In this document: positions 33,101 through 36,100 of the stretch, one piece after another
Layout of the letters: each line of letters starts with the position of its first letter
Position numbering within the stretch: position 1 is the stretch's first letter
Assembly: GCF_964355755.1 (NCBI RefSeq)
Contig: NC_092675.1
Span: forward strand, 20,536,912 to 20,600,911
DNA: 64,000 bases
Reading direction: 5' to 3'
DNA from: Antedon mediterranea
Lineage: Eukaryota; Echinodermata; Crinoidea; Comatulida; Antedonidae
Notes under the pieces: generated by a model
Seen by the model: the letters and a program-made list of their open reading frames with translations, nothing else
Told to the model about the DNA's origin: nothing
The model's database searches: none
Translations under genes and position numbers: made by a program

Positions 33101-36100
33101 TGCATTGGGCTCATGCTTGCCCCAGGTTGAGCACTCAGGGGCTCTCCAACACTGGGTAGTTGCATTGGGCTCATGCTTGCCCCAGGTTGAGCACTCAGGG
33201 GCTCTCCAACACTGGGTAGTTGCATTGGGCTCATGCTTGCCCCAGGTTGAGCACTCAGGGGCTCTCCAACACTGGGTAGTTGCATTGGGCTCATGCTTGC
33301 CCCAGGTTGAGCACTCAGGGGCTCTCCAACACTGGGTAGTTGCATTGGGCTCATGCTTGCCCCAGGTTGAGCACTCAGGGGCTCTCCAACACTGGGTAGT
33401 TGCATTGGGCTCATGCTTGCCCCAGGTTGAGCACTCAGGGGCTCTCCAACACTGGGTAGTTGCATTGGGCTCATGCTTGCCCCAGGTTGAGCACTCAGGG
33501 GCTCTCCAACACTGGGTAGTTGCATTGGGCTCATGCTTGCCCCAGGTTGAGCACTCAGGGGCTCTCCAACACTGGGTAGTTGCATTGGGCTCATGCTTGC
33601 CCCAGGTTGAGCACTCAGGGCTCTTCAACACTGGGTAGTTGCATTGGGCTCATGCTTGGGGCCCCTGGGTTTAGCCAGTGAGCGCACATAGCCATTACGC
33701 CATGCTTAAAAATCTCCCTTAAGTTCCTTGAGCAAAAAATTACCCAACCAATCAGAGCTCATGAAATGTGTTGTCACACATTAATAATCATTCAAGCAAA
33801 TTGATCAGCTTAGTAAAGCTTGGTTCCCACTACAGACGTAATCACAAGTGGGAACCGATGACGCAACAGTGCTGCAAATTTCGCAGGTTTGATTTCACGC
33901 AGGCGGGGGCAAACACAATTATTGGAAGGGCATTTTCTTACGTTGCGTCGATAGTTGGAACCAAGCTTTAGATACATAAATCAGGTGTTCATTCATGTAG
34001 TGACAATAATAAAAGGGTAGTATGAATTTGTTCTCAGCATAAAAATTTAATTGGGCATTCTTGAATAACTTTTTAATCTACAATTTTATTTCACCCACCT
34101 TCTGCTGTCATCTTTGCCAACTGAGGCACCTCTATGTAGAAATCCTTGCGGAATGGTTGATAATCGATTGTAGTGTGGTCTACGAGCGCTAACTCCTTTT
34201 TCTTTTTAAGTTCCAGTGCATTCTTCATCGTGTCAGCTAAACTTGTTTCTTCCTCTTCTGAAGAATACTAAAACATCCACAAAAATTTGGTGTAACTAAA
34301 AACATAAACTACATATACAGGAGGCAGACAAGGCTTTCACCTCGCCTGAAATATCCAATTTTCACCACCCACCCCAATTCCCCAGTACAGTCATATTTTA
34401 TATAAATAATTATATTTAAAGCATCTTTGCTTTGTCTGTTTTTAACCCCTCACTATGGCCTGTAACATGGACAGTAAATTTTGTTAAGGTTAAAGGTCAA
34501 AATTAACTTTTCACTTACCTCCATGGCATCCTGATCATTTATCATGAGCTCTCCTTTGTTGAGTATCTTAGAAGTGTGTGGTACTTGTAACTTTTTAGCA
34601 ACTCCTGTTACAATACTGACTGTACCAAGAGGCATCTATAACACAAAAGTGAATTTAAAGAATAAGATTAAAAAAGATAAGATACAAATAATCTATTATT
34701 AAATTCACAGAGTTCTGATTAATTTATAAGGGTAGAATATGTCACATAGCCTACACATACATGGAACCTGAAATAAAGATGGGGAAAATTCCTGCCCATC
34801 TTTGCCAAACACGATTTCTCTTTCATCGGAGACGTTTCTGTTTATTTGGGAATGTTATTGCGCCCATACCGACTATTTTAATGCCCTGTATAACTTACAT
34901 TTTTTTTCTCTTTCATCTGAGACCTTTCTCTTTATTGGGGAATGTTATTGCACCCATACCGGCTATTTTAATGCCCTGTATAACTTACATTTTCTTTCTC
35001 TTTCATCTAAGACCTTTCTCTTTATTGGGGAATGTTATTGCGCCCATACCGGCTATTTTAATGCCCTGTATAACTTACAATCATTTTCTTTCTCTTTCAT
35101 CTGAGACCTTTCTCTTTATTGGGGAATGTTATTGCGCCCATACCGGCTATTTTAATGCCCTGTATAACTTACATTTTCTTTCTCTTTCATCTCAGACCTT
35201 TCTCTTTATTGGGGAATGTTATTGCGCCCATACCGGCTATTTTATTGACCTGTATAACTTACAATCATTTTCTTTCTCTTTCATCTGAGACCTTTCTGTT
35301 TATTGGGGAATGTTATTGCGCCCATACCGGCTATTTTAATGCCCTGTATAACTTACATTTTCTTTCTCTTTCATCTAAGACCTTTCTCTTTATTGGGGAA
35401 TGTTATTGCGCTCATACCGGCTATTTTATTGACCTGTATAACTTACAATCATTTTCTTTCTCTTTCATCTGAGAAATTTCTCTTTATTGGGGAATGTTAT
35501 TGCACCCATACCGGCTATTTTAATGCCCTGTATAACTTACAATCATTTTCTTTCTCTTTCATCTGAGACCTTTCTCTTTATTGGGGAATGTTATTGCACC
35601 CATACCGGCTACTTTATTGACCTGTATAACTTACATTTTCTTTCTCTTTCATCTGAAACCTTTCTGTTTATTGGGGAATGTTATTGCGCCCATACCGGCT
35701 ACTTTATTGACCTGTATAACTTACAATCATTTTCTTTCTCTTTCATCTAAGACCTTTCTCTTTATTGGGGAATGTTATTGCGCCCATACCGACTACTTTA
35801 TTGACCTGTATAACTTACATTTCTTTCTCATTCATCTGACACCTTTCTGTTTATTGGGGAATGTTATTGCGCCCATAACAGCTATTTTATTGACCTGTAT
35901 AACTTACATCTTCTTTCTCTTCCATAGCTGGTAGACCTTTCTGGCTACGATCAGTATTAGTGATTTTTCTCACTTCATCCTGGACTCCTTGCATGAATGC
36001 ATCCAATGGATCGATGTCATCGTCTTTTTCTTCTTTCTTTACTTCTTTCTCATCTTCTTTCTCTTCTTTTATTTTAATACTTTTCTCTCCTTCCTTCTCA

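Follow-up and report, generated by a model that had tools for sequence, protein, structure and literature searches.

The window analysed here, 64,000 nt of contig NC_092675.1 of Antedon mediterranea (G+C 32%), carries on its minus strand the gene for the splicing helicase DDX46, in which the donor at one exon end is repeated in tandem. The coding exon concerned (35908..36120, 213 nt; open frame VTEENQ...MEEKED) is called exon 5, a label carried over as such from an earlier note on this DNA. It ends ...GAAGAT| in phase 0 and is followed by the 14-mer GTAAGTTATACAGG, with its GT at 35907. The next coding exon (34519..34635, minus strand) follows the acceptor ...TTATAG|ATGCCT. A joined translation of exon 5 and the next two exons aligns throughout, and through the junction, to PDB chains of DDX46 (best E-value 1.1e-26; 3.9e-26 for a chain named DDX46). 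As joining to 34635 yields the orthologous protein, we infer that the first GTAAGT (35902..35907, minus strand; copy 1 of 12) is the authentic 5' splice site and the one in use.

Twelve copies of one splice donor in DDX46

Tandem Repeats Finder (TRF) reported a single array at 34815-35925, across the end of exon 5, with periods of 90, 94 and 184 bp and 12.1 copies at 90/94. Twelve copies of GTAAGTTATACAGG lie on the minus strand, one at the junction and 11 beyond it, at successive steps of 89, 94, 90, 94, 94, 90, 94, 90, 94, 90 and 90 bp; the earlier note had put the copies beyond the junction at about 11, and by these positions there are exactly 11. The resulting decoy donors GTAAGT (34893..35818, minus strand) have their GT at 35818, 35724, 35634, 35540, 35446, 35356, 35262, 35172, 35078, 34988 and 34898. 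All are identical to the first donor from +1 to +14 and differ from it in the preceding three bases (AAT or ATT versus GAT); judged by sequence, they would be hardly weaker. Reading on past the first donor gives GTA AGT TAT ACA GGT CAA TAA, that is, VSYTGQ and a stop at codon 7, just as had been claimed, and any decoy would therefore truncate the protein. The array occupies 1093 nt of the 1272-nt intron, and the acceptor of the next exon lies ~180 nt outside it.

The repeat unit includes the exon end, the donor and ~55 nt of intron. Its exonic part corresponds to the last 35 nt of exon 5 (35908..35942, minus strand); their alignment to 31 nt in the intronic unit scores 22 and has 2 mismatches and two gaps of 2 nt. 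The best other 35-mer of the same exon, a neighbouring and overlapping one, scored 17, and the best of 20,000 two-base-block shuffles 16.5. A chance similarity between GA-rich stretches of exon and unit was rejected, as neither control matched the score of 22. Together, TRF periods and alignment bear out the earlier description of a 90/94-bp unit carrying about 35 bases of the exon, the donor and adjoining intron.

When the 90-base unit was searched against the 354 Mb genome, in which counts of repeats are lower bounds, all 12 matches lay within the DDX46 array, so that a dispersed or mobile repeat was rejected as its source. An assembly error is unlikely, because units of 90 and 94 bp alternate and because the structure recurs in other genes. 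The units are not equally alike. Divergence is greatest by far in the exon unit, u1 (80-84% identity to the others); u2, at 87-94%, ranks just below u6 and u12, and inner units reach 99%. The edge units thus stand outside the homogenisation of the array, clearly in the case of u1 and weakly in that of u2. Relative to the exon copy, the 11 intronic units have a 4-nt gap and further differences in common. The 90/94 spacing alternates over most of the array, with a period of 184 bp, and a 90+94 dimer was therefore amplified at least once.

Exon 5 is flanked by arrays on both sides. A 23/37/60-bp array in the preceding intron (36132-36397) ends ~12 nt before the acceptor (exon start 36120) and leaves that acceptor out. 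Another DDX46 intron contains a GC-rich array of 14 60-bp units (32814-33658), which is not at an exon and has GGGGTAAGC in two copies and GGGGCAAGC in the others seen.

Donor-spanning arrays in other genes

A second array in the window spans a donor of NOX5 (14647..15461, plus strand; first donor GT at 14660). Its 41-bp unit contains 13 nt of exon, identical to the exon itself, which matches NADPH oxidase 5 at 1.3e-19. GTRAGT is kept in some of these copies only, whereas GTAAGTTATACAGG is retained in 12/12 copies in DDX46, a difference that the earlier note had seen correctly.

For the rest of the genome, we searched for three AGGTRAGT words 20-50 bases apart and read all of the 24 distinct arrays listed. 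This catalogue is partial: one pattern gave 580 matches, of which 100, on contig C1 only, were listed, and it leaves out TAGGTRAGT or CAGGTAAGTA arrays outside C1 as well as mixed-word arrays; the other donor searches were complete. As DDX46 and NOX5, which lack three exact AGGTRAGT words at this spacing, themselves fall outside the pattern, the catalogue is a lower bound. The reverse control of the 580-match pattern gave 1722 matches, inflated by a large satellite, and raw match counts were for this reason not used as evidence.

In 8/24 arrays, the first copy coincides with the end of an open exon, and the unit carries at least 10 nt of this exon (11-58 nt); with two looser cases, the count is 10/24. 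The stricter set comprises DHX8 (PDB match 1e-20), TDP2 (1e-10), HUWE1 (L020, C9:24970800-24973500; 30-bp unit; 1e-20), an ABCC-type transporter (5e-5), a flavin amine oxidase (L019; Pfam 2e-7) and three exons without a database match (L016, L022, L025). The looser set holds two arrays. That of the gamma-tubulin complex gene GCP2 (L021; Pfam 2e-11) begins at the donor and, by a strict walk, has only 2 nt of exon in common; L023 (57-bp unit, open in frame) may be a coding repeat instead of a junction array. Database matches were obtained for 6 of these 10 arrays, and no exon end was seen on reading the other 14 of the 24. The junction-spanning structure is, as had been proposed, not confined to one gene.

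The units of L019 and L023 are almost wholly exon, and their edge shares TAAGTGG or GAGTTGGG with the start of the intron, as if the unit had been set by microhomology at the donor. In HUWE1, the 30-bp unit contains no stop and keeps the frame, so that each decoy would add the 10 residues VSPFLYNSIE.

Exon ends among arrays and among single donor words

As the donor word is often a real donor, a random position is the wrong null; against it, arrays at exon ends would exceed chance. We compared the arrays with single words, taking the first 40 of 100 listed GAGGTRAGT sites (2999 in the genome) as they follow each other on contig C1. Left out of this sample were three clusters of GAGGTAAGT near 2.48, 2.72 and 3.42 Mb of C1, which are spaced at multiples of 66 bp and are probably one repeated family. 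Of the 40 single words, 13 lie at the end of an open exon, with a further 2 in doubt (L041, L107); among the others, 3 (L106, L108, L112) are copies of one repeat. Set against this 13/40, the 8/24 of the arrays corresponds to an odds ratio of 1.04 (95% range 0.35-3.0, Fisher p = 1.0), and the looser 10/24 to one of 1.48 (range 0.52-4.2, Fisher p = 0.59). Pfam matches at E <= 1e-3, sought in frames judged open by eye only, were likewise found for 3/24 arrays (10 frames searched) and 4/40 single words (13 frames searched).

The donor word was also compared with its reverse. GAGGTRAGT (2999 words in the whole genome) formed 6 arrays, and the reversed word (3847 words) formed 12 in the first ~80% of the genome (100 of 129 matches listed, to C9:3.26 Mb, with seven places of one collagen-like gene taken as one array). 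By this comparison, the donor word is no more array-prone than its reverse, which is found in arrays at least as often; samples of this small size are compatible with a modest preference. Overall, the arrays show no donor preference detectable in these samples; donors merely do not prevent arrays.

Several points weigh against this reading. We called exon ends by eye, on the basis of open frames, and the samples are small, so that a threefold preference for donors is still compatible with the odds-ratio ranges. All of the single words are GAGGTRAGT from C1, whereas AAGG, CAGG and TAGG contexts also occur in the arrays. If only the GAGG arrays are counted, 4/6 lie at exon ends (3/6 strictly); this exceeds 13/40, but six arrays are too few for a conclusion. 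The reversed word is not a cleanly matched control, as several of its arrays resemble microsatellites or belong to a collagen-like coding repeat. At DDX46 itself, the use of the first donor is deduced from orthology.

Acceptor-spanning arrays

Arrays at the other end of the intron were sought with the words TTTTAGGA and TTTNCAGG (100 of 266, 100 of 184 and all 46 matches listed). One entry, L081, is no array, leaving 31, of which 23 were read to the end; excluded were L055, L060, L066, L067, L069, L078 and L079, which continue beyond the last exact word, and L076, which continues beyond the fetched piece. Among the matches listed, a coding exon begins at the last copy in 1/23, an array in DDX54 with ~9 nt of exon in the unit (L058, C1:41235951-41236411; PDB match 1.8e-11). 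Single acceptor words start an exon in 7/40 cases overall (TTTNCAGG, 3/20 in C1, plus the doubtful L095, and 2/15 in the window; TTTTAGGA, 2/5 in the window). The array share is low by comparison (odds ratio ~0.25), with a binomial p = 0.07 and a Fisher p = 0.24 against 7/40.

When donor and acceptor arrays are compared directly, 8/24 or 10/24 versus 1/23 gives p = 0.02 or 0.004, a comparison that ignores the different backgrounds of the words. With these backgrounds allowed for, the posterior for no difference between donors and acceptors is 0.04-0.09. That acceptor-spanning arrays are rarer than donor-spanning ones is therefore suggestive only.

Two further features of the window were noted. 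A repeat in two copies on the minus strand, at 48644 and 49336, reads tctggttttccagGAAGGCTGGTAT, an acceptor mimic, and a 320-codon open frame at 38982-39944 was recognised by eye as resembling the end of the reverse transcriptase of a retrotransposon without long terminal repeats (non-LTR).

Known systems and the origin of the DDX46 array

Repeats that span exon-intron boundaries are known from amphioxus as 'mirages', and two reports (PMC3087553, PMC3902484) describe them in Adh3, in the globins BflGb6 and BflGb9, and in TnC and PGBD5; the original amphioxus Adh paper (Nucleic Acids Res 2002) is cited here through these two. They mention both boundaries and length instability, and reverse transcription PCR suggesting that splicing is undisturbed. 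The DDX46 array, with exon end, donor and intron in its unit, its splice signals kept and its edge units diverged, belongs to this known class, which recurs in this genome, and is one of several loci. Whereas in amphioxus, according to the same reports, 5' and 3' boundaries were treated gene by gene, we have a partial genome sample, mostly of donors, with an explicit null. No genome-wide measurement of the class against a null was found in the literature searched; Zhuo 2007 and Gao and Lynch 2009 (PNAS), likely places for one, lay outside that search.

A human parallel is the 31-bp variable-number tandem repeat of CBS, c.1444_1467+7, present in 16-21 copies (PMC2630376). By its coordinates, the repeated unit consists of 24 exonic and 7 intronic bases; it differs from the DDX46 array in being known to vary between people and in being much shorter than 90/94 bp. 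Duplication across a boundary can also create introns (PMC4974935, PMC2812944). In the latter, internal tandem repeats in human segmental duplications likewise cross the exon-intron boundary and inherit splice signals from the parent junction; these cases make or alter an intron, whereas the DDX46 junction is apparently just repeated within one. Two other candidates, an earthworm metallothionein (PMC12783039) and a C. elegans minisatellite (PMC4039745), were set aside because they are not the same thing as a junction-spanning array.

Together, these data make it probable that the DDX46 array is a junction-spanning minisatellite that arose by random tandem growth and is tolerated by splicing, with donors being permissive rather than special starting points. 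From the make-up of the unit, a single old tandem duplication would have covered ~35 nt at the exon end, the donor and ~55 nt of intron. As the copied donor came to lie downstream, within the intron, and the first donor still yields normal mRNA, this change would have been nearly neutral. The gap and the differences common to the 11 intronic units indicate that the intronic copy drifted before it multiplied. Growth may then have proceeded by unequal exchange or slippage, in part as the 90+94 dimer. Splicing at any of copies 2-12 would bring in a stop, in frame, after six additional codons and presumably lead to mRNA decay. Such arrays would arise wherever tandem duplications happen to fall, and random tandem growth plus tolerance is enough to explain donor-spanning arrays.

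The earlier note had instead thought of a process, with tandem duplication initiating at, or tolerated at, 5' splice sites. Tolerance agrees with our data, but initiation is unsupported by the comparison of 8/24 or 10/24 with 13/40. Duplication could start preferentially at donors through, for example, R-loops, U1-bound nascent RNA or microhomology at AGGTAAG. Two arrays within one 64 kb window, the 8-10 of 24 elsewhere and the 4/6 of the GAGG arrays would suit such seeding, and the TAAGTGG or GAGTTGGG common to unit edge and exon in the amine oxidase gene and L023 suggests that microhomology may have helped there. As the exon-end share over all arrays read equals that of single words, and arrays of the reversed word are at least as frequent, we regard preferential seeding as improbable.

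Two further explanations concern DDX46 itself, and both appear far-fetched. Decoy donors might regulate the gene by competing for U1 or by forming a poison extension, and this splicing helicase would then be under feedback from splicing capacity. This idea draws on the GTAAGTTATACAGG common to all 12 donors, on the stop at codon 7 of the extension and on DHX8, a second splicing helicase with a donor-spanning array; moreover, by base count and from general knowledge of U1 pairing, the AAT| copies should equal the first GAT| site in their pairing with U1. Yet the same structure is found in TDP2, HUWE1, NOX5 and the amine oxidase gene, which lie outside splicing, the variation among units is that of drift and dimer growth, and nothing in the sequence shows decoy use. 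We consider autoregulation of DDX46 by decoys very improbable. Equally hard to credit is that the intron itself is new, its donor made when an AGGT-like stretch was duplicated. Intron gain by tandem duplication is a known mechanism (PMC4974935, PMC3087553) and the array fills most of the intron, but the acceptor of the next exon lies well beyond it. The two ends of the intron therefore do not both lie in copies of one unit, and its boundaries are not the signals of two unit copies. Random tandem growth, tolerated by splicing, remains our preferred account of the DDX46 array.

The DDX46 array shows that duplicating the end of an exon need do no evident harm, and alternative donors and new introns probably can arise in this way. 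With a dozen identical donors in succession, of which one apparently serves, nature offers a test of the spliceosome's ranking of equal sites. The apparent scarcity of acceptor-spanning arrays leads us to a tentative and rather doubtful extension: arrays copying a donor may be tolerated at a neutral rate, as the true site is transcribed first, whereas those copying an acceptor, in which the decoys come first, may be purged. If this were true, the genome would record a 'first come, first served' rule of splice-site choice, and if the asymmetry holds in a full scan, co-transcriptional splice-site choice could be measured genome-wide from tandem repeats.
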